A stretch of DNA of 34,555 bases from an uncultured Erysipelotrichaceae bacterium (GTDB lineage: Bacteria; Bacillota_I; Bacilli_A; RF39; UBA660), in contig CADANX010000014.1 of assembly GCA_902789425.1 (NCBI GenBank), forward strand, positions 1-34,555, given 5' to 3'. Below the pieces are notes generated by a model. That model had not been told where the DNA came from, ran no database searches, and saw only the letters and a program-made list of their open reading frames with translations. Position 1 is the stretch's first letter. Each line of letters starts with the position of its first letter. This document shows, in pieces, positions 3,355 to 27,332 of the stretch. The translations under genes and the position numbers were made by a program.

Positions 3355-3431
3355 GGATTCTTAGCTCAGTTGGTTAGAGCACCTGCCTTACAAGCAGGGG
3401 GTCACAGGTTCGAGTCCTGTAGAGTCCACCA
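3355..3431 (+). tRNA. tRNA-Val (UAC)
   Basis: Complete cloverleaf with acceptor GGATTCT/AGAGTCC, anticodon loop CTTACAA (anticodon TAC), T-arm GGTTCGAGTCC and an encoded CCA. First gene of a five-tRNA operon. Confidence 0.97.
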
Positions 3432-3434
3432 TTT

Positions 3435-3518
3435 GGGGAGATAGCGAAGTGGCTAAACGCGGCGGACTGTAAATCCGCTCCTTAGGGTTCGGTGGTTCGA
3501 ATCCACCTCTCCCCACCA
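3435..3518 (+). tRNA. tRNA-Tyr (GUA)
   Basis: Acceptor GGGGAGA/TCTCCCC, anticodon loop CTGTAAA (GTA), a long variable arm as expected for a class II bacterial tRNA-Tyr, and an encoded CCA. Confidence 0.97.
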
Positions 3519-3523
3519 GAGTT

Positions 3524-3598
3524 TGCCTTGTAGCCAAGTGGTAAGGCATCAGACTTTGACTCTGACATGCGCAAGTTCGAATCTTGCCAAGGCAGCCA
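3524..3598 (+). tRNA. tRNA-Gln (UUG)
   Basis: Acceptor TGCCTTG/CAAGGCA, anticodon loop CTTTGAC (TTG), discriminator G and an encoded CCA. The U1-A72 start is typical of bacterial tRNA-Gln. The glutamyl-tRNA synthetase at 27791 may charge this tRNA before transamidation, as in most Bacilli. Confidence 0.97.
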
Positions 3599-3604
3599 AA
3601 ATAT

Positions 3605-3680
3605 GATCCGTTAGCTCAGCCGGTAGAGCACTTGACTTTTAATCAAGGGGTCATGAGTTCGAATCTCATACGGATCACCA
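3605..3680 (+). tRNA. tRNA-Lys (UUU)
   Basis: Acceptor GATCCGT/ACGGATC, anticodon loop CTTTTAA (TTT), encoded CCA. Confidence 0.97.
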
Positions 3681-3682
3681 CT

Positions 3683-3758
<76 letters not shown>

Positions 3759-3770
3759 CTTTGGTTATAT

Positions 3771-3798
3771 AAAAAGAACTTTATTAGTTCTTTTTTTT
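3771..3798 (+). terminator. Terminator of tRNA operon 1
   Basis: AAAGAAC and GTTCTTT arms around TTTATTA, followed by eight or more T. Confidence 0.85.
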
Positions 3799-3806
3799 AT
3801 GTTAAT

Positions 3807-3834
3807 TTGACTTATTTATAAGTTATAGTATAAT
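3807..3834 (+). promoter_or_regulatory. Promoter of the 288-residue orphan gene
   Basis: TTGACT (3807-3812), 16-bp spacer, TATAAT (3829-3834), 25 bp before the ATG. Confidence 0.7.
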
Positions 3835-3859
3835 AATCCACAAAAAAAGGGAGTTACTA

Positions 3860-4726
3860 ATGAAAAAAGTAGAATTATCAGATTTTTTAAATCAAAATAT
3901 TGTTATTGATAGACATCAATGCTTTGATATATTTTTTGTTTCAAAATTACATTCAATATATGAGTTTGCTCTTAGTAAAAATGAAAAAATAGTATATAAT
4001 AATCAAGATTTATTAGAGTATATTGAAGAACAAAAACAATCTATTTTAAATGCACCATCTAGAAATGAAGTACTTGAAAAAGTTGAAAAACAAGATAAAA
4101 AAAGATTTATATTTCGTTCATTATATGGTACTTCAATATTCTTATTTGTTATAGGCTCTCACGTATTTTGTAAAGATTATTTAATTCATGAAAAAAGTAA
4201 TGTAAATAATTCATATGGATTAATAAATGAATTATCTTATGAAGATAATGAAATTACAAGTATTAATACTTCTGATTTAAAAGATATTAATGATTATTTT
4301 GATCCTACATCTGATAAATATTATAAAAATACTAATTTATTTTATAATTTAACTGATGATTTAAGAGTACTTGATAATATATCAATAAGTAAAGTTTTAG
4401 ATAATAAAGGAATAGATGTTATTCAAATAGATAATAGTTTATATTCTAAGACTGGAAATGTTACTATTGTTAATTATACTGATAATGAACATATAAAAAC
4501 ACTAGTAACATCAAAAACATTTACTAAAGATGATGAAATTATTAAATTATTATGTTCTGAAAAAAAGGGTAGATATTTAATTATTAATAAAGAAGAATTA
4601 CCTGCTTTAAAATTTGAAGAAATACCTTCAGTATACAAAAATAAAAATACAGGTGAAGTAAGCGTTAAGAACCCATCAAAAGTTAGAAAATTAACATTTG
4701 AATTTATAAATAAGCATTTTAATTAA
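3860..4726 (+). CDS. Single-pass membrane protein of unknown function
   Basis: I do not recognise this 288-residue protein. Residues 1-85 are charged and soluble, ending with a basic patch KKRFIFR. About residues 90-108 form one membrane helix (YGTSIFLFVIGSHVFC). The remaining 180 residues would lie outside if the positive-inside rule holds: they are rich in Asn, Asp and Thr, with no lipobox, LPXTG or catalytic motif that I can see. It is flanked by its own consensus promoter and intrinsic terminator, between two tRNA operons, so it is an independent transcription unit and very probably a real gene. Codon use looks like that of its neighbours. A regulatory or envelope role is only a guess. 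Confidence 0.8.
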   Translation: MKKVELSDFLNQNIVIDRHQCFDIFFVSKLHSIYEFALSKNEKIVYNNQDLLEYIEEQKQSILNAPSRNEVLEKVEKQDKKRFIFRSLYGTSIFLFVIGSHVFCKDYLIHEKSNVNNSYGLINELSYEDNEITSINTSDLKDINDYFDPTSDKYYKNTNLFYNLTDDLRVLDNISISKVLDNKGIDVIQIDNSLYSKTGNVTIVNYTDNEHIKTLVTSKTFTKDDEIIKLLCSEKKGRYLIINKEELPALKFEEIPSVYKNKNTGEVSVKNPSKVRKLTFEFINKHFN

Positions 4727-4751
4727 AAAGAACTATTTTAGTTCTTTTTTT
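4725..4751 (+). terminator. Terminator of the 288-residue orphan gene
   Basis: AAAAAGAACTA and TAGTTCTTTTT stem overlapping the stop codon, followed by a T-run. Confidence 0.85.
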
Positions 4752-4822
4752 ATTTTATAAGTAATATTTTTATCTAATTTTTATATAATATAGTATTAGA
4801 AGTAGAAAAAATAAAAAAAGTC

Positions 4823-4851
4823 TTGCAAAATAATGAAATATATTATATAAT
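4823..4851 (+). promoter_or_regulatory. Promoter of tRNA operon 2
   Basis: TTGCAA (4823-4828), 17-bp spacer, TATAAT (4846-4851), upstream of tRNA-Leu. Confidence 0.75.
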
Positions 4852-4882
4852 TTAGAAGTCCAGTGCAATTGGATATGGTGCT

Positions 4883-4971
4883 GCCTTAGTGGCGGAATTG
4901 GTAGACGCACAGGACTTAAAATCCTGCGTGAGTTAAATCACGTGCCGGTTCAAGTCCGGCCTGAGGCACCA
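4883..4971 (+). tRNA. tRNA-Leu (UAA)
   Basis: Acceptor GCCTTAG/CTGAGGC, anticodon loop CTTAAAA (TAA), long variable arm, encoded CCA. Confidence 0.97.
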
Positions 4972-4981
4972 TTTTTTTATT

Positions 4982-5074
4982 GGAGAAATACCCAAGTCTG
5001 GTTGAAGGGACCGGTCTTGAAAACCGGGAGGTCGAGCAATCGGCGCGGGGGTTCGAATCCCTCTTTCTCCGCCA
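4982..5074 (+). tRNA. tRNA-Ser (UGA)
   Basis: Acceptor GGAGAAA/TTTCTCC, anticodon loop CTTGAAA (TGA), long variable arm, discriminator G and encoded CCA. Confidence 0.97.
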
Positions 5075-5088
5075 TTTAAAATTTGTAT

Positions 5089-5165
5089 CGCGGGATAGAG
5101 CAGTCTGGTAGCTCGTTGGGCTCATAACCCAGAGGTCGTAGGTTCAAATCCTGCTCCCGCAACCA
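5089..5165 (+). tRNA. Initiator tRNA-fMet (CAU)
   Basis: Anticodon loop CTCATAA (CAT). The acceptor CGCGGGA/TCCCGCA leaves C1 opposite A72 unpaired, and the anticodon stem has three consecutive G-C pairs next to the loop. Both are hallmarks of the bacterial initiator, so this is not elongator Met or lysidine-Ile. CCA is encoded. Confidence 0.96.
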
Positions 5166-5174
5166 TATGATTTT

Positions 5175-5198
5175 TAAGAACTTAATTGTTCTTTTTTT
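5175..5198 (+). terminator. Terminator of tRNA operon 2
   Basis: AAGAAC and GTTCTT arms around TTAATT, followed by a T-run. Confidence 0.8.
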
Positions 5199-5199
5199 A

Positions 5200-5228
5200 T
5201 TGTAATAATATTATTCATATGTTAAAAT
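5200..5228 (+). promoter_or_regulatory. Promoter of the lipoprotein gene
   Basis: TTGTAA (5200-5205), 17-bp spacer, TAAAAT (5223-5228), just upstream of GGAGGT. Confidence 0.55.
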
Positions 5229-5246
5229 TATTTTATGGAGGTAAGT

Positions 5247-5684
5247 ATGAGTAAGAGTAAGATAATTTTAGCTTTCGTTCTAACATTTTCTGTATTATTT
5301 ATTGCTGGTTGTTCTCAAAAAGAATCTAAACTAGTATGTACACAAACTACAAGTGGAATTGATATAGAATTTAATGTTGGTTTCAAAGGTAATGTGATTA
5401 AATCTATGGATTTCAATTATGATATGGATTTATCAAAATATAGTGATACTCAAATTAAAGCAATTGGAAAACAAGATTTTTGTTCAACAGTTAAAAATTA
5501 TATGAGTCAATTTAAAGATGCTTTTTCTAACTGTAAACAAGATATTGGTAGTGATAAACACTTAAAAGTTGCTGCTGAATTTGAAGTAGACAAATTAACT
5601 AAAAGTTATCTAGACAAAATATCTACACCAGCTAAAACTAAAAAAGAATTAGAAGCTAGTGGATATAAGTGTACAATTAAATAA
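5247..5684 (+). CDS. Small lipoprotein of unknown function
   Basis: Protein of 145 residues with a lipoprotein signal peptide: a basic start (MSKSK), a hydrophobic stretch (about residues 6-20) and lipobox IAGC near residue 22, so it should be lipid-anchored outside the membrane. The mature part holds several Cys (VCTQ, FCST, NCKQ, YKCT) that could form disulfides, and resembles in general layout the small secreted lipoproteins common in Bacillota. I do not recognise a named domain. The ATG at 5247 is chosen because GGAGGT lies six bases upstream; an in-frame ATG at 5235 overlaps that site. It has its own promoter and terminator between tRNA operons 2 and 3. Confidence 0.85.
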   Translation: MSKSKIILAFVLTFSVLFIAGCSQKESKLVCTQTTSGIDIEFNVGFKGNVIKSMDFNYDMDLSKYSDTQIKAIGKQDFCSTVKNYMSQFKDAFSNCKQDIGSDKHLKVAAEFEVDKLTKSYLDKISTPAKTKKELEASGYKCTIK

Positions 5685-5708
5685 AAAATGCTTTTTATAG
5701 CATTTTTT
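5683..5708 (+). terminator. Terminator of the lipoprotein gene
   Basis: AAAATGCT and AGCATTTT arms around TTTTAT with a following T-run; the stem begins at the stop codon. Confidence 0.85.
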
Positions 5709-5736
5709 ATTTTATTTATTTTTTTTTTCAAAAGTA

Positions 5737-5766
5737 TTGACATATTTACTAAAAATTTAGTATACT
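5737..5766 (+). promoter_or_regulatory. Promoter of tRNA operon 3
   Basis: TTGACA (5737-5742), 18-bp spacer, TATACT (5761-5766), upstream of tRNA-Asp. Confidence 0.8.
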
Positions 5767-5787
5767 AAAGTAGCGTTTTAGTTAATT

Positions 5788-5863
5788 GGTTCCGTGGTGT
5801 AGTGGTTAACACGTCTGCCTGTCACGCAGAAGATCGCGAGTTCAATCCTCGTCGGAACCGCCA
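5788..5863 (+). tRNA. tRNA-Asp (GUC)
   Basis: Acceptor GGTTCCG/CGGAACC, anticodon loop CTGTCAC (GTC), discriminator G and encoded CCA. Confidence 0.97.
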
Positions 5864-5875
5864 TTTTTTTTTATT

Positions 5876-5951
<76 letters not shown>

Positions 5952-5980
5952 TTTTAGAAAAATTAATGTGCGCTAAGTAT

Positions 5981-6057
5981 GCGCTCTTAGCTCAGCTGGA
6001 TAGAGTGTTTGGCTACGAACCAAAAGGTCAGGGGTTCGAATCCCTTAGGGCGCACCA
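5981..6057 (+). tRNA. tRNA-Arg (ACG)
   Basis: Acceptor GCGCTCT/AGGGCGC, anticodon loop CTACGAA (ACG, presumably deaminated to inosine by TadA), encoded CCA. The spacer just upstream repeats the 5' end of the gene: TGCGCT occurs at 5969-5974 and again at 5980-5985. Confidence 0.97.
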
Positions 6058-6062
6058 TATAC

Positions 6063-6139
6063 CGGGGTGTAGCACAACTTGGCAGTGCGCTTGGTTTGGG
6101 ACCAAGAGGTTGCAGGTTCAAATCCTGTCACCCCGACCA
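6063..6139 (+). tRNA. tRNA-Pro (UGG)
   Basis: Acceptor CGGGGTG/CACCCCG, anticodon loop TTTGGGA (TGG), encoded CCA. Last gene of operon 3. Confidence 0.97.
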
Positions 6140-6960: not shown

Positions 6961-6982
6961 AAATTTTTATTTCTAGTTTTTA
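6956..6982. terminator. Bidirectional terminator between the YvyF-like gene and gatD
   Basis: ACTAGAAA and TTTCTAGT arms around TTTTTA, with A-rich sequence on the left and T-rich on the right. The two stop codons lie in opposite arms, so the hairpin serves both converging genes. Confidence 0.8.
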
Positions 6983-7638
6983 TATGCAAGTTCATCTAAT
7001 TTATAGTTACCATCTATTATTTTATATTTACTATCTTTATTATGAATAAGCTCTTTAATAAAATATTTACAAAATTCTGGATTTCTTACAAGCAGTGGAC
7101 CAATTACATAACTACCATAAAAGTTCTTCTTTTTAACACCTTCATCTTCAAATAAATGTTCTTCTTTACTATTTAAATATCCTGGATGATTTTCAAATCC
7201 AATAATATTTTTATTTATTAAATTACATTTATAATTTACATCTTTAACGATTCTATCTTTTAAATCATAATCATATTCTACAAAATAGTTAAATATATTT
7301 AATGTTTTAATTACATTACTTTTAATTCTTATATATTTACCAAATAATTCAAAAGAATTACCAGTTGCTAATATAAATTTATTGTTATCAATGTATTTTT
7401 TTATATCATTTTTATAATTTTTAAGATCTTCAAGTGCTATTAATAAGTTTTTATCAGTTCCAGATCCAATATATACAAGATCATATTTATTAAAATACTT
7501 TTTATCATTAACAGATAAATATTTTATAGTAACATCTATTTTTTGTTCTTCAAGGTGATATTTTAGAGCCATTATATTTCCAACATCTCCATAAAGATTT
7601 AATAAATCATGATATAAATAAGCTATTGTCATTTTCAT
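6973..7638 (-). CDS. gatD: GatD-like glutamine amidotransferase subunit, apparently inactive
   Basis: Partner of MurT in the MurT-GatD complex, which amidates D-Glu of lipid II in Gram-positive bacteria. The 221 residues align along the class I (CobB/CobQ-like) amidotransferase: IAYLYHDLLNLYGDVGN at the start, YIGSGTDKN, GFENHPGYL (146-155) and GSYVIGPLL (175-183). The nucleophile elbow, normally A-x-C-G-G-Y-Q, reads ATGNSFELFG (91-100), placing Gly93 where the catalytic Cys should be. The catalytic His of the usual G-T-Y-L-H-G-P is Ile179. Both key residues are thus missing although the fold motifs remain. The start overlaps the murT stop as TAATG, with AGAGGTGA upstream, so the two are translationally coupled. 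Family call is firm; glutaminase activity is not expected. Confidence 0.88.
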   Translation of the reverse strand: MKMTIAYLYHDLLNLYGDVGNIMALKYHLEEQKIDVTIKYLSVNDKKYFNKYDLVYIGSGTDKNLLIALEDLKNYKNDIKKYIDNNKFILATGNSFELFGKYIRIKSNVIKTLNIFNYFVEYDYDLKDRIVKDVNYKCNLINKNIIGFENHPGYLNSKEEHLFEDEGVKKKNFYGSYVIGPLLVRNPEFCKYFIKELIHNKDSKYKIIDGNYKLDELAYKN

Positions 7639-8951
7639 TATTTATCACCTCTTATTTTGTTTTTAAAAGGCTCTATATAGTCAAAATTAAGTATTGCATA
7701 AACATCACCTTTTGTATTTTTTAAATCATTTTTAATATTATCTAAATTATATTTAATAATTAATTTCTTTTCATCAATACCAGCATATTTCATTCTAAGT
7801 GCTATATCATATTTATAAGGACCAGCACATATTATTTTATCTACTGATTTATCATTTAAAAGTTCAAAACTACTTCTGCTTATTTCGTTAAGACCAAGTA
7901 CGATGGTCTTTTTTTCATTACTTAAACTTGTATATAATAATGCAAGATTATAAGTGGCATTGTTTTCCGCTTTACAATTTAAAGTAATATATTTTCTATC
8001 TTTTATTATAATTTCTTCATATATTTTATTATCAATTCCTAAATTATTTAGTGAATCAATTATTTTATTTCCATCAATTTTTAATAAGTCACAAACAGAA
8101 TAAACTGTAATAATGTTATATAGATTAAATAATATATAATTTGTAATATTTATTTCATCTTTATTATTAATTGTAATTGTCATTTTTTTCTTATCAATAT
8201 TTGTTATATCATAACTAACATTTTCTCTTTTATAACCACAATTATTACATTTATAATCACCGACACTACCATAATGATAATAATTAAATTTAAGTTTGCT
8301 ATTACAATTTGGACAATATAAATTATCTTTTGTATAATCTATTTCTTTATCAGTACTCATAAAGTTTTTTTCTATTCCATAATATGTAATTTTTCCTTTA
8401 TGGTATAATTCAAAACTCTTAGTAAGGGGGTCATCTGCATTAACAATTAAATGCATATTTTTGTAAATGCCTTTTTTTATTTCGTTAAATACAAATTCAA
8501 AAGATGTATTTCTTGGTGGTTGGTCTCTAGTTATGTTGTTGATAACTAAATAATCAGGTTTAATATACTTAGTGATTAGTTTAAGATATCTTTCATCAAC
8601 TTCATATACAATATAATCTGTTTTTATTTTACCATTTATAGATGAATCATTTATAAGCATCGTAATAAATGCATTCACTAAATTTGATCCTTTATAATTT
8701 GTAGTAACAGTATATCCATTATCTAAAAGAACTTTAGTAATCATTTTTGTTGTACTACCTTTTCCAGTAGAACCAGTTACAAATATTGTTGTTTTAGGAT
8801 AAGTAATATTATTTAAAATATCTGGACAAATCTTTTTAGCTACTGATCCTGGAAATACAGATGCATTGTATTTAATAATCTTAAATTTTCTTAATAATTC
8901 AATAAATTTAATTAAAAATTTCCCTACAAATATACTTATATATAATCTCAT
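7638..8951 (-). CDS. murT: MurT-like lipid II isoglutaminyl synthase, ligase subunit
   Basis: Mur-ligase-family subunit that activates the D-Glu carboxylate of lipid II with ATP. The 437 residues show the N-terminal MurT segment (FPGSVAKKICPDIL), a P-loop TGSTGKGSTT (59-68), the DEADE-like VDERYL and NNITRDQ region (117-143), NADDPL, and a four-Cys zinc ribbon inserted in the ligase domain (Cys213, 216, 235, 238). The C-terminal DUF1727 domain is divergent: the usual KNPAG reads NCKAENNA (325-332), and the expected D-G-x-D-x-S-W-x-W-D segment, source of the Asp that completes GatD's triad, is shortened to LNEISRSSFELL (354-365). It starts after AGAGG and leads a two-gene operon with gatD. Confidence 0.9.
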   Translation of the reverse strand: MRLYISIFVGKFLIKFIELLRKFKIIKYNASVFPGSVAKKICPDILNNITYPKTTIFVTGSTGKGSTTKMITKVLLDNGYTVTTNYKGSNLVNAFITMLINDSSINGKIKTDYIVYEVDERYLKLITKYIKPDYLVINNITRDQPPRNTSFEFVFNEIKKGIYKNMHLIVNADDPLTKSFELYHKGKITYYGIEKNFMSTDKEIDYTKDNLYCPNCNSKLKFNYYHYGSVGDYKCNNCGYKRENVSYDITNIDKKKMTITINNKDEINITNYILFNLYNIITVYSVCDLLKIDGNKIIDSLNNLGIDNKIYEEIIIKDRKYITLNCKAENNATYNLALLYTSLSNEKKTIVLGLNEISRSSFELLNDKSVDKIICAGPYKYDIALRMKYAGIDEKKLIIKYNLDNIKNDLKNTKGDVYAILNFDYIEPFKNKIRGDK

Positions 8952-21875: not shown

Positions 21876-24260
21876 ATGAATAATATATTTATAAATAATA
21901 GTATTTTAATAATTCCAAATGAATATAAAAGGGATGTTTTAATTAGTCTAAATAAAATGGACGAAAAATATAATATAAAGATTATGTCACTAAATGAATT
22001 TGTAAGTTTATTTACATTTTCTTTTGATGAAAAATCTATATGTTATATTGTTGAAAACTATGATGTTAATTACAAAGTTGCAAAAGATTATTTAAAATAT
22101 ATTAGATTTCTTGATGATAAAAAATATAAAAGTGAAAAATTAAACTTTTTATTAAAAATAAAAAAAGAATTAGATGAAAATGATCTACTTATTTATGATG
22201 ATAATTTTACAAATTTTATAAATAATAAACAAATTGTTGTATATGGATATGATTATATAGATAAATTTTCATTAAATATATTAAATAAATATAACCCAAT
22301 TATTATTAATAAAGAATATAAAACTTATGAACATGAAATATATGAATTTAATTCACTTGAATCTGAAGTGACTTTTGTTGCTGAAAAAATATGTGAACTT
22401 ATTAAATCTAATAAAAGCATAAATAATATAAAAATTGCTGGTATTAATGATAAATACTATTTTACTTTAAAAAGAATTTTTTCTTTATACAATTTAAATA
22501 TAAATATTAATAATTTACCTAGTATTTATTCATCTAATATAGTAAAAGATTTTTTAGATAATTTAGATGATATAGATATTACTTTAAACTATATTTCGGG
22601 TAAATATAATATGGATAATCCAGATAATTTATATGTATATAATAGTATTATAAAGATATTAAATAAATACTATTTTATTAATGATTTCTGTGAAATAAAA
22701 GAAATACTAGAAGAAGAATTTAAAAGTATTAAATTTAAAGAAAAAAAATATAAAAATAAAATAGATATTATAGATATTAATAAATCTATAATTAATGATG
22801 ATGATTATGTGTTTTTACTTGGCTTTAATCAAGGTTTGATACCTAAAATTTATAAAGATGAAGAATATTTATCTGATAAAGAAAAAGAAGAGTTAAATAT
22901 AGAAACATCAAAGGAAAATAATATAAAAGAAAAAGAAATAACATTAAATAATATAAAAAATATAAAGAATTTAATAATAACATACAAAAATAAATCTTCA
23001 TTTGATGAATACTATCCATCATCACTTATATATGATTTAAATATGCCTGTTATTGTTAATAAAGAATTAAATTATTCTTATTCTAACTTAAATAATAAAT
23101 TATTACTTTCAAAAAAACTAGATAACTTAATGAAATATGGTTCAAAAGATGATAAGTTAGAGGTTTTATATACTAGCTATAAAGATATACCATATAAAAC
23201 ATATTGTAATAAGTATAATAAAGTAAATAAAGATAAACTAAAAGAATTTTTAAAAGAAAAATTAACACTATCTTATTCTAGTATGGATAATTATTATAAA
23301 TGTCCATTTAAATACTATTTAAATAATATACTTAGAATTGACAATTATGAAGAAACATTTGATATGTTTATAGGTAATTTATTTCATTATATTTTATCAA
23401 TTTGTTTTAATGAAAACTTTGATTTTGAAACAGAATATACTAATTATATAAAAGAAAAAGATTTTTCATTTAAAGAAAAGTTTTATATTAATAAATTAAA
23501 AGAAGATCTTAAATTTATAATAAGTACTATAAAAAAACAATATACTCATATGTCATTTGATAAAGCTCTATATGAAGATGAAGTAATTGTTAATTATGAT
23601 AAAAGTATTAAAGTAACATTCAAAGGATTTATAGATAAAATACTTTATACAAATAAAAATGATAATATATATGCAATAATTGTAGACTACAAAACAGGAA
23701 CACCTGAACTTGATTTAAAGAATGCTTATTATGGAATAAATATGCAACTTCCGATATATATTTATCTAGCTAAAAATAATAATAAAATAAAAGATGTTAA
23801 AGTACTAGGTTTTTATCTTCAAAAGATATTAGATAATCCTACAAGAAAAGAAAAAGATAAAACAATGAAAATGTCTAAAGAAGAAAGATTAAAACTTCAA
23901 GGATATTCAGTAAATAATGAAGAATTATTATCAATTATTGATGATTCTTATGAAAATAGTGAAGTAATAAAATCATTAAAAATGACAAAAAATGGTTTTT
24001 CAAGCTATTCTAAAATTATTTCAGAAGATATCATAGAAAAAATTTCATCTTTTACAGAAGAAAAAATTAATAATGCTGTTGATAACATAATAGATGCTAA
24101 TTTTGATATAAGTCCAATTATATTAGATGGTAAAAATGTTTCATGTGAATACTGTAAATTCAAGGATATATGTAATATGACATATAACGATGTTAAAGTA
24201 CTTGATAAAAAAGAAAATTTAGATTTTTTAGGTGGTGAAGAAGATGCCAGAGTGGACTAA
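21876..24260 (+). CDS. addB: AddB-like subunit of the AddAB helicase-nuclease
   Basis: With AddA it processes double-strand breaks into 3' tails for RecA. The 794-residue protein is shorter than B. subtilis AddB (about 1166) but has the diagnostic C-terminal nuclease: YSSMDNYYKCPFKYYL (first cluster Cys), GFIDKI and AIIVDYKTG (RecB-type metal-binding D and D-x-K), NMQLPIYIYL (QxxxY) and CEYCKFKDIC with the last three Fe-S Cys. Its helicase-like N-terminal part has no clear Walker A, so that part is probably structural. I chose the ATG at 21876 after AGGTGA; TATAAT lies at 21853-21858. The stop overlaps the start of addA by 17 bases. Confidence 0.9.
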   Translation: MNNIFINNSILIIPNEYKRDVLISLNKMDEKYNIKIMSLNEFVSLFTFSFDEKSICYIVENYDVNYKVAKDYLKYIRFLDDKKYKSEKLNFLLKIKKELDENDLLIYDDNFTNFINNKQIVVYGYDYIDKFSLNILNKYNPIIINKEYKTYEHEIYEFNSLESEVTFVAEKICELIKSNKSINNIKIAGINDKYYFTLKRIFSLYNLNININNLPSIYSSNIVKDFLDNLDDIDITLNYISGKYNMDNPDNLYVYNSIIKILNKYYFINDFCEIKEILEEEFKSIKFKEKKYKNKIDIIDINKSIINDDDYVFLLGFNQGLIPKIYKDEEYLSDKEKEELNIETSKENNIKEKEITLNNIKNIKNLIITYKNKSSFDEYYPSSLIYDLNMPVIVNKELNYSYSNLNNKLLLSKKLDNLMKYGSKDDKLEVLYTSYKDIPYKTYCNKYNKVNKDKLKEFLKEKLTLSYSSMDNYYKCPFKYYLNNILRIDNYEETFDMFIGNLFHYILSICFNENFDFETEYTNYIKEKDFSFKEKFYINKLKEDLKFIISTIKKQYTHMSFDKALYEDEVIVNYDKSIKVTFKGFIDKILYTNKNDNIYAIIVDYKTGTPELDLKNAYYGINMQLPIYIYLAKNNNKIKDVKVLGFYLQKILDNPTRKEKDKTMKMSKEERLKLQGYSVNNEELLSIIDDSYENSEVIKSLKMTKNGFSSYSKIISEDIIEKISSFTEEKINNAVDNIIDANFDISPIILDGKNVSCEYCKFKDICNMTYNDVKVLDKKENLDFLGGEEDARVD

Positions 24261-25761
24261 AGAACAAAAACTTGCTATTGATAAAGAAGGATCTAATATA
24301 ATTGTTTCTGCAGGTGCAGGTAGTGGAAAAACTGCTGTACTTACTGAAAGAGTAATAAGAAAACTAAAAGAGGGAGTATCTATTGATGAATTATTAATAC
24401 TTACCTTTACAGAAGCAGCTGCTAAAGAAATGAAAGATAGAATCAGAAGAGCAATAGTAAAAAATGAATCTTTAAAGAAAAATTTAGAACTAATAGATTC
24501 TGCTTACATAACTACATTTGATAGTTATGCTCTTTCAGTTGTAAAAAAATACTATTATTTACTTAATATATCTCCAAATATAAAGATATGTGATGAAAAT
24601 ATTTTGTTTTTAAAAAAATCTGAAATACTAGATGATATTTTCGAAGACTATTATAGAGAAAATGATGAATTATTTATAAAACTAATAACTGATTATACAA
24701 ATAAAAATGATACATTTATTAAAAATAATATATTAAGTATTAATAATAAATTAGATAGTATTATTAACAAAGAAGAATTTTTAGATAATTATTTTTCTAA
24801 TTATACTGATGAAGATATAGATAAATATATAAGTGAATACAATAATTTACTTATTAGAAAAATAAATAGTATTAAAAATTTAATTCATTCATTATCATTT
24901 TTTGTAGAAAACACATATATTGAAAAATTAAATAATGAATTAAAAAACTTACTTAATTCTAAAACATATAATGAGGTTAAAACTAATTGTGAAATAAAAC
25001 TTCCATCACTTCCAAGAAATTCTTCAGAAGAAGCAAAAGCATATAAAGAACTTATAAAATCTATGCTTGATAGTGTTAAAAAATTATGTACTTATGAAAA
25101 TGAAGAAGAGATTAAAAGTAGTATTTTCAAAACAAAAGACTATGTAAAAGTAGTAATTGATATATTAAAAAGATTAGATAATGAAATAAAAGAATTTAAG
25201 AAAGAAAATGAATTATATGACTTTTTAGATATAGAACTTCTTGCAATTAAAGTATTAAAAGAAAATAAAGAAGTAGCAAAATCTATAAAAGAAAGTTTAA
25301 ATGAAATAATGATAGATGAATATCAAGATACAAATGATATACAAGAAGAATTTATTTCATATATTTCTAATAATAATGTTTATATGGTTGGTGATATAAA
25401 ACAATCAATATATAGATTTAGAAATGCTAATCCATATATATTTAAAAGTAAATATGATAGTTATAAAGATGGAAACGGATTTAAAATAGACTTAAATAAA
25501 AATTTTAGATCAAGAGAAGAAGTACTTGATGGAATTAATAAAATATTTTCAAAAATTATGGATGACTCAATTGGTGGTGCAAGTTATATAGATTCTCATC
25601 AAATGATATTTGGTAATCTTGATTACAATAATAATGGTAAAGTAAATCAGAATAATAATCTTGATATTTATAATTATACTTTTGATAAAGAAAGTGGATT
25701 TTCAAAAGAAGAATATGAAGCTTTTATAGTTGCAAATGATATAAAAGAAATAGAGATTTAG
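24244..25761 (+). CDS. addA: AddA helicase-nuclease, N-terminal part (frame interrupted)
   Basis: N-terminal half of the UvrD-like helicase AddA: a Q-motif WTKEQKLAI, Walker A SAGAGSGKTAVL (about 25-36), motif Ia LTFTEAAAKEM, the TTFDSYALSVV segment, Walker B DEYQDTNDIQ, motif III GDIKQSIYRFR and motif IV LNKNFRSREE. The reading frame then ends at TAG 25759-25761 after VANDIKEIEI, just before the second helicase half. The continuation lies in the -1 frame with no gap (see the C-terminal entry). One missing A, near the A-run at 25743-25746, would account for the break. The ATG at 24244 is chosen because GGTGG lies 8 bases upstream, inside addB. Confidence 0.92.
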   Translation: MPEWTKEQKLAIDKEGSNIIVSAGAGSGKTAVLTERVIRKLKEGVSIDELLILTFTEAAAKEMKDRIRRAIVKNESLKKNLELIDSAYITTFDSYALSVVKKYYYLLNISPNIKICDENILFLKKSEILDDIFEDYYRENDELFIKLITDYTNKNDTFIKNNILSINNKLDSIINKEEFLDNYFSNYTDEDIDKYISEYNNLLIRKINSIKNLIHSLSFFVENTYIEKLNNELKNLLNSKTYNEVKTNCEIKLPSLPRNSSEEAKAYKELIKSMLDSVKKLCTYENEEEIKSSIFKTKDYVKVVIDILKRLDNEIKEFKKENELYDFLDIELLAIKVLKENKEVAKSIKESLNEIMIDEYQDTNDIQEEFISYISNNNVYMVGDIKQSIYRFRNANPYIFKSKYDSYKDGNGFKIDLNKNFRSREEVLDGINKIFSKIMDDSIGGASYIDSHQMIFGNLDYNNNGKVNQNNNLDIYNYTFDKESGFSKEEYEAFIVANDIKEIEI

Positions 25762-27332
25762 GTAAATCAAGAAAAGCTAAATATAATGATTTTGTTATTC
25801 TTATAGATAAGTCAAAAGACTTTGATTTATATAAAAAAATATTTGAATACTATAATATTCCATTAAGTATTTTAAAAGATGAAGATTATAAAGATGATAT
25901 TATATTAGCAATAATAAAAAATCTAATAAATATAACTATTAAATACAAAAATAATGAAATTGATAGTGAGTACAAACATTCATTAGTATCAATTATGCGT
26001 AGTTTTCTATTTGAAATTAAAGATAATGAAATATTAAATATGTTTATTAATAAAGATTTTACAAATAATGAAGTAATAAACATTATAAAAGAGATAAATA
26101 TAGATAGTATGAGTACAAGTATGCTTATAAATACTTTTATAGATAAATTTAATATATATGAAAATCTAATAAAAGTAGGTAATATTAATTCATCACTTGT
26201 TGTACTAGAATACTTAATAAATAAAAGTAGTGAATTATCAGAACTTGGTTATACAATTAATGATTTTAATAATTATTTAAATGATGTTATTGATAATAAT
26301 TTATCAATTAAATTTTCAGTAGAAAACGAAGCATCTGATTCTGTAAAAATAATGACTATTCATAAATCAAAGGGTTTAGAATATAGTATATGTTATTTTC
26401 CAGAACTATTTAATAAATTTAATTTAAGAGATTTAAATGATAACATTCTATTTGATAGAAAATATGGAATAGTTATGCCATACTTTGATGATGGTTTAAA
26501 TAATTCTATTGTAAACACATTATTAAAAGATAATTATATAAAAGAAGAAATAGGTGAAAAAATAAGACTATTTTATGTATCTTTAACAAGAGCAAAAGAA
26601 AAAATGATAATGATATGTGATTTATCGGATGATTATATGTCATCTAAAGATGAAAATGGACTTGTTGATGAAGATAAAAGACTTACATATAGTTCTTTTA
26701 AAGATATAATAGAGTCTATAAAAGAAGATTTTAATTCAAATATAAAAGAAATAAAAACTGACTACTTAACAAATGATTATAAGAAAGTATTAGATATTAA
26801 TGTAAAAATTGATGAAACAAATAATATAATTACTGTAAATGAAATAGATAAAGATGATGAGATATTAAATGAAAAACATTTTTCAAAAGATCTTGTTAAG
26901 TTAAATACAAAAGAAGAAATAGAAAACATGAAATTTGGTACATATATGCATTATTTACTTGAGACAATTGATTTTTATAAAAGAGATATTTCATTTGTAG
27001 ATGAAAAATATAAAGATAAATTAATTAAATTTTTAGATTTAGACATAATAAAAGATTTAGATGGTGCAAAAGTATATAAAGAATATGAATTTATTGAAAT
27101 AGATAAAGATGATGAAAATCATGGTATTATTGACCTTATGATAGAAAGAAAAGATTATATAGATATAATTGATTATAAACTTAAAAATGTTGCTGATGAA
27201 TCATATTTAAAACAGCTTAATGGTTATAAGAATTTTATTACAAAAAGATTTAATAAAAAAGTAAATATTTATTTATATTCAATTATAGATGAAAAACTAT
27301 ATAATTTAGATAATAAAGAGTTAGTAAAATAA
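25749..27332 (+). CDS. addA: AddA helicase-nuclease, C-terminal part (continuation in -1 frame)
   Basis: The frame is open from 25740 and reads, from 25749, N-R-D-L-G-K then YNDFVILIDKSKDF, the motif expected straight after the N-terminal part. It continues with motif V MTIHKSKGLEYSICYFPE, motif VI GEKIRLFYVSLTRAKEKM and the C-terminal RecB-type nuclease: FGTYMHYLLE, GIIDLMIERK and DIIDYKLKN (metal-binding residues) and QLNGYKNF (QxxxY). The first ATG in this frame is at 25995 with no good ribosome site, so independent translation is unlikely. Joined, the protein would be about 1030 residues against about 1230 in B. subtilis. A sequencing error, a real mutation or recoding are all possible. 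Confidence 0.88.
   Translation, partial: NRDLGKSRKAKYNDFVILIDKSKDFDLYKKIFEYYNIPLSILKDEDYKDDIILAIIKNLINITIKYKNNEIDSEYKHSLVSIMRSFLFEIKDNEILNMFINKDFTNNEVINIIKEINIDSMSTSMLINTFIDKFNIYENLIKVGNINSSLVVLEYLINKSSELSELGYTINDFNNYLNDVIDNNLSIKFSVENEASDSVKIMTIHKSKGLEYSICYFPELFNKFNLRDLNDNILFDRKYGIVMPYFDDGLNNSIVNTLLKDNYIKEEIGEKIRLFYVSLTRAKEKMIMICDLSDDYMSSKDENGLVDEDKRLTYSSFKDIIESIKEDFNSNIKEIKTDYLTNDYKKVLDINVKIDETNNIITVNEIDKDDEILNEKHFSKDLVKLNTKEEIENMKFGTYMHYLLETIDFYKRDISFVDEKYKDKLIKFLDLDIIKDLDGAKVYKEYEFIEIDKDDENHGIIDLMIERKDYIDIIDYKLKNVADESYLKQLNGYKNFITKRFNKKVNIYLYSIIDEKLYNLDNKELVK

Follow-up and report, generated by a model that had tools for sequence, protein, structure and literature searches.

The locus described here lies in a stretch of 34,555 nucleotides (the window) from an uncultured Erysipelotrichaceae bacterium whose genome is a 1.03-Mb assembly (coded G000). 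Two intact open reading frames on the minus strand overlap by one base: a murT-like gene (7638-8951, minus strand) encoding 437 amino acids with Mur_ligase_M and MurT_C domains and a zinc ribbon, and a gatD-like gene (6973-7638, minus strand) encoding 221 amino acids with a GATase_3 domain, i.e., a class I glutaminase fold without the catalytic cysteine and histidine. Among solved structures, the pair comes closest to MurT-GatD from S. aureus, S. pneumoniae and S. pyogenes, with which it has in common the two-gene operon, the GATase_3 fold, a Mur ligase middle domain with a Cys4 zinc ribbon, and MurT_C. An earlier note on this DNA held that the fold motifs of GatD had been kept, and the AF2 model of the window's GatD (pLDDT 95) agrees, its best PDB matches being GatD structures at TM 0.85-0.88; the structure model of a relative's MurT likewise has MurT as its top match. 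Homologous folds, adjoining genes and the zinc ribbon all speak for kinship with MurT-GatD. Both proteins fall far short of the NCBIfam equivalog cut-offs (GatD with 114 of 400 bits, MurT with 154 of 800 bits), and the nearest named records come from uncultured 'Bacilli' and 'Mycoplasmatota' MAGs. As for the surroundings, twelve tRNA genes in three clusters (3355-6139) lie just beside the pair. A small lipoprotein-like ORF is found at 5235-5684; its relatives occur near murT-gatD in four congeners (L096, L099, L100, L110), where murT-gatD sits among ribosomal protein genes and not by spoIVA. Elsewhere in the window (24232-27332), UvrD-type helicase matches are split between an N-terminal domain (24232-25761) and a C-terminal domain (25995-27332), possibly reflecting a frameshift or a split gene.

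The central claim of the earlier note, that this GatD carries Gly93 for the catalytic cysteine and Ile179 for the catalytic histidine, was confirmed by alignment to S. aureus GatD: Gly93 (codon 7360-7362, minus strand; motif ATGNSFELFG) occupies the position of Cys94, and Ile179 (codon 7102-7104, minus strand; motif GSYVIGPLL) that of His189. The same state is found across a whole subfamily. Thr92 and Gly93 are present in 54/54 glutaminase-less GatDs compared and Asn94 in 93% of them, such that T-G-N replaces I-C-G, and position 189 is occupied by Ile, Leu, Val or Thr, with His in 0/54; among canonical GatDs (n=26), Cys94 and His189 are both at 100%. Arg128, the glutamine-capturing residue of S. 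aureus GatD (PMC5871853), has an equivalent in 85% of the dead GatDs, including the window's (Arg129, codon 7252-7254, minus strand), and the GP and Asn motif that follows position 189 is kept in 100%. When substitutes were sought in the 54 subfamily GatDs, cysteine did not exceed 13% in any listed column, and the best column for histidine reached 57%, with Tyr at that place in the window. An alternative working Cys/His dyad, named earlier as a possible refutation, was rejected, as no such column is conserved across the subfamily. Between close relatives dN/dS is 0.08-0.28 for GatD and 0.08-0.22 for MurT, from which it follows that the genes are maintained by purifying selection. Judged from its sequence, the window's pair represents a type of MurT-GatD that occurs in nature, is conserved and lacks the glutaminase. 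The label isoglutaminyl synthase, which most annotation pipelines would give to the two subunits, should be withheld, because a feature that defines that enzyme, the Cys/His pair of GatD, was looked for and is absent.

A MurT_C domain was found in 33/78 sampled genomes of the window's family, three of which (G069, G071, G074) were left unclassified. Counted by hand from search tables, the glutaminase-less form occurs in 32 genera of this family and in 3 genera of a second family (f19), and canonical pairs in two genera of the window's family (G034, G077). A phylum-wide search yielded no matches beyond the class, to which these distribution figures apply. In the MurT tree, the canonical rows group together (support 100/96), and a branch of weak support (82/35) separates them from the 55 dead rows, which comprise clade A (49 rows, including the window; support 100/98) and clade B (6 rows; support 100/100). 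In one further variant (G114; L142 5929-9633), GatD has Glu at the Cys position and Arg at the His position, and the pair lies directly after glnA (glutamine synthetase).

The ligase subunit has been remodelled along with this history, as seen in an alignment of 49 clade-A MurTs to which the percentages below refer (S. aureus residue numbers). The P-loop lysine (K59), E108, D110, E111, N85 and R138 are kept in 100%; in the window, the invariant E-x-D-E residues for Mg/ATP are E117, D119 and E120 (8592-8603, minus strand). In S. pneumoniae MurT, N85 is the residue in contact with the acceptor carboxylate, and D112/E113 are the Mg ligands (PMC6085368). The zinc-ribbon cysteines (C213, C216, C235, C238 in the window; 8238-8315, minus strand) are also kept in subfamily MurTs. 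The earlier note described operon and ATP-binding motifs as intact; the genes do overlap, and the P-loop Lys, E108, D110 and E111 are invariant. Together with N85, Arg128 of GatD and the GP..N interface motif, these residues are what the subfamily shares with lipid II isoglutaminyl synthase, from which it differs in the loss of Cys94 (to Gly) and His189 (to Ile or Leu) in GatD and in four stretches of MurT, each now a different conserved motif. The P-loop, canonically TGTNGKTTT, has the clade-A consensus TGSSGKGST (core GSSGKGS; GSTGKGST in the window, 8751-8774, minus strand). FRDQMDR has become TRDQPPR, which includes the loop changes F132T, L136P and D137P, and NYT has become NFD (Y418F, T419D; F423-D424 in the window, 7680-7685, minus strand). 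KNPAG, described earlier as eroded, is better understood as replaced by a conserved K-[AN]-E-N in which Lys and Glu are both at 100% (K327-A-E329-N330 in the window, 7962-7973, minus strand). At the site of the S. pneumoniae KNP loop, other Mur ligases have an acidic residue that touches the ATP ribose (PMC6085368); by analogy, the clade-A Glu may restore this contact.

A further claim, that of a coordinated loss in both subunits, proved wrong. Asp349 of S. aureus MurT is the third triad residue (PMC6113224), and the segment that carries it is indeed missing from the window's MurT. However, the segment persists in relatives whose GatD is dead in the same way: the D349 equivalent is present in 94% of the 49 clade-A MurTs and the SW(L/I)(Y/W)D that follows (W352/D355) in 98%. 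The D..SWLYD segment was removed by a 36-nt in-frame deletion near 7869-7875, private to the window's MurT and known from one assembly only, with the junction of the 12 missing residues at R359-S360-S361 (7869-7877, minus strand). A loss of the Asp segment in step with GatD was hence rejected. The deleted stretch corresponds to Asp355, Trp360 and Asp361 of S. pneumoniae MurT (numbering obtained by subtracting an 18-residue tag), which border the gate to GatD and anchor that subunit, and W360A in that protein abolishes GatD binding (PMC6085368).

This leads us to an important caveat: the window's copy may be less representative than its relatives. It is possible, if somewhat doubtful, that this one copy is in early decay or reassignment, a reading that concerns the window's copy only and is compatible with the others. 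The absence of the GatD-contact segment from its MurT-A would fit such a course, as would the clade-B pair held in the same genome. Moreover, no MurT in the genus diverges as far as this one (mean identity 0.53 vs 0.60-0.65), which is not true of its GatD, and dN/dS between the window's copy and relatives is 0.37-0.52. On the other hand, both reading frames are intact and overlapping, the window departs, besides the deletion, at only one MurT and one GatD column among those conserved at 90% or more, and another genome (G005) has both pairs yet an intact MurT-A. The proposal of a changed reaction rather than decay is supported for the subfamily by the fixation of the GatD change in 32 genera of the family, dN/dS of 0.08-0.28 in close pairs and conserved new ligase motifs; the window's own copy may be drifting.

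The second pair of this genome, on contig C1 (L091 9458-14900), belongs to clade B, is also glutaminase-less (TGNALEIF and TYLLGPF in its GatD) and forms part of an operon. One neighbour encodes a RimK-like ATP-grasp protein, another an EctB-type diaminobutyrate transaminase that passes the TIGR02407 cut-off of 552 with a score of 563, and a third is ornithine-racemase-like, its 340 bits falling short of the required 480. The gene order is the same in G005; G096, from another genus, has murT-gatD-ectB in a different order. EctB was found in 5/78 family genomes, including 3/3 recognised clade-B1 carriers (chance 1.3e-4, uncorrected for relatedness). In G098 ectB adjoins murE, and in G079 it adjoins the same ATP-grasp gene as in the clade-B operon. 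The racemase-like gene was rejected as a general partner, occurring in 1/78 sampled genomes (the window's own) plus G005. The position of ectB beside clade-B murT-gatD, murE and the ATP-grasp gene ties diaminobutyrate to wall synthesis in these genomes, be it as a substrate of MurT-B or as a stem residue. The earlier idea that another amine is joined to the stem peptide finds backing in this operon but not in clade A, where the pairs of relatives, like that of the window, stand without any amine-making gene alongside.

Our preferred reading, to which we assign a probability of about 0.5 from comparative sequence evidence, is that MurT-GatD of this subfamily uses an amine other than glutamine-derived ammonia and that GatD has become a dead scaffold. 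As for substrate, acceptor and mechanism, we infer the following. GatD, which keeps its fold and MurT-facing motifs, would be a catalytically dead partner (a scaffold or an allosteric subunit), and MurT would most likely still activate a stem-peptide carboxylate as an acyl phosphate, like other Mur ligases, the acceptor presumably being the D-Glu alpha-carboxyl of the lipid-linked precursor. The nucleophile would be an amine not derived from glutamine, entering without GatD catalysis; the leading candidate in clade B would be diaminobutyrate, as its genes sit with EctB and the racemase. The use of another amine is best supported for clade B, and it is also favoured by the re-tooled pocket and by the reported ability of S. 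aureus MurT to replace MurE in vitro (PMC3266927), which implies that the fold can take an amino acid. MurE-type amino acid ligases have a related fold and likewise join an amine to a muropeptide carboxylate at the expense of ATP. The profile alignment to MurE had too many gaps to support statements about single residues.

Amines on the D-Glu alpha-carboxyl do occur in nature (PMC10628300), as in the polyamine-containing peptidoglycan of Selenomonas and Veillonella and the N-acetylputrescine of Cyanophora (PMC10628300, PMC3266927), although these organisms belong to different phyla and no link to MurT-GatD was found. A more specific and more tentative version of our reading, which we regard as somewhat less likely to be right than wrong, is that glutaminase-less MurT-GatD pairs are amide ligases placing amino acids or diamines on the D-Glu alpha-carboxyl of precursors, with diaminobutyrate as the substituent in clade B, perhaps in the D-form from the adjoining racemase. 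In the literature searched, no gene for D-Glu-substituted walls has been identified; if true, the amide-ligase reading would supply the kind of enzyme that such walls need.

For the window's own copy, a serious rival is that the product is the same D-isoglutamine, made from free ammonia that may be plentiful in the gut, with GatD kept only for the stability of MurT. Carbamoyl phosphate synthetase I is a precedent for the use of free ammonia. Moreover, S. aureus MurT combined with GatD C94G, a laboratory mutant with the identical Cys-to-Gly change, keeps NH3-dependent amidation, loses the glutamine-dependent reaction and still needs GatD (PMC3266927); a dead GatD is therefore compatible with ordinary isoglutamine, and the retained fold and interface motifs would be expected. 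Nonetheless, the S. aureus enzyme used NH3 at pH 8.5 and not at 7.5 (PMC3266927), and the mutant is an engineered single change, unlike the natural family, which has also lost His189 and remodelled its MurT. Such extensive fixed changes in the ligase site are not needed for a mere switch to ammonia, and the genomic links of clade B are to diaminobutyrate and racemase genes. We consider free ammonia the less likely nucleophile for the subfamily, while recognising that the C94G result at pH 8.5 and the solitary clade-A pairs both count against another amine. A third possibility is that MurT-A acts on an acceptor other than the D-Glu of lipid II, e.g., another wall or spore carboxylate. The F132T, L136P and D137P substitutions, the changed C-terminal pocket and the adjoining spoIVA in the window would suit this; we nevertheless judge it improbable, since the acceptor-carboxylate Asn85 and the Mg-binding D110/E111 are invariant and spoIVA is not a conserved neighbour among relatives. 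Finally, sequencing or assembly error or a pseudogene has next to no probability left: its one support is the MurT deletion known from a single assembly, and for GatD it was rejected by the survey of relatives that the earlier note had proposed, which found the same changes in every subfamily member compared, i.e., in dozens of genomes and MAGs.

The wall of this family provides further context for the use of another amine. FemAB-type aminoacyl transferases are encoded in 77/78 family genomes (C1:92699-93901 in the window's genome), which suggests a bridge made by another route and so counts against another amine; by the same sequence evidence, they probably weaken the case for a family-wide type B peptidoglycan (bridged at the D-Glu alpha-carboxyl) and argue for a type A bridge. 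A type B bridge ligase was also sought in the literature, and none was found. The ectB-murE adjacency in G098 also weighs against another amine, as diaminobutyrate may there be a stem residue and not a MurT substrate. DapB scored above cut-off in 1/78 family genomes only, namely G077, which has canonical MurT-GatD, and own synthesis of DAP therefore seems absent; yet, in an apparent conflict over DAP as third stem residue, the MurE of the window's genome has the DNPR motif. DNPR was commoner in MurT carriers (14/15 vs 3/9, p=0.004; relatedness uncontrolled, MurE unmatched in two further genomes), a comparison not used as evidence here. Many family genomes have two tandem MurE-like ligases that differ in the amino acid recognition motif, DNPR in one and mostly DDPH in the other (L176, L186, L188, L191, L197). 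In G003 and G008 (L190, L192), MurE-like ORFs reach 768-789 aa, exceeding the usual length by about 300 aa, and are possibly fusions.

Our results have implications whichever nucleophile is used. If it is free ammonia, the subfamily would amount to the S. aureus C94G experiment performed and fixed by nature, and to an amidotransferase of a rare type that works without a glutaminase. If it is another amine, an enzyme that loads substituents onto D-Glu becomes testable, and a whole family of bacteria would have a peptidoglycan chemistry that has so far escaped notice, at the residue by which cross-linking and innate immune sensing are controlled.
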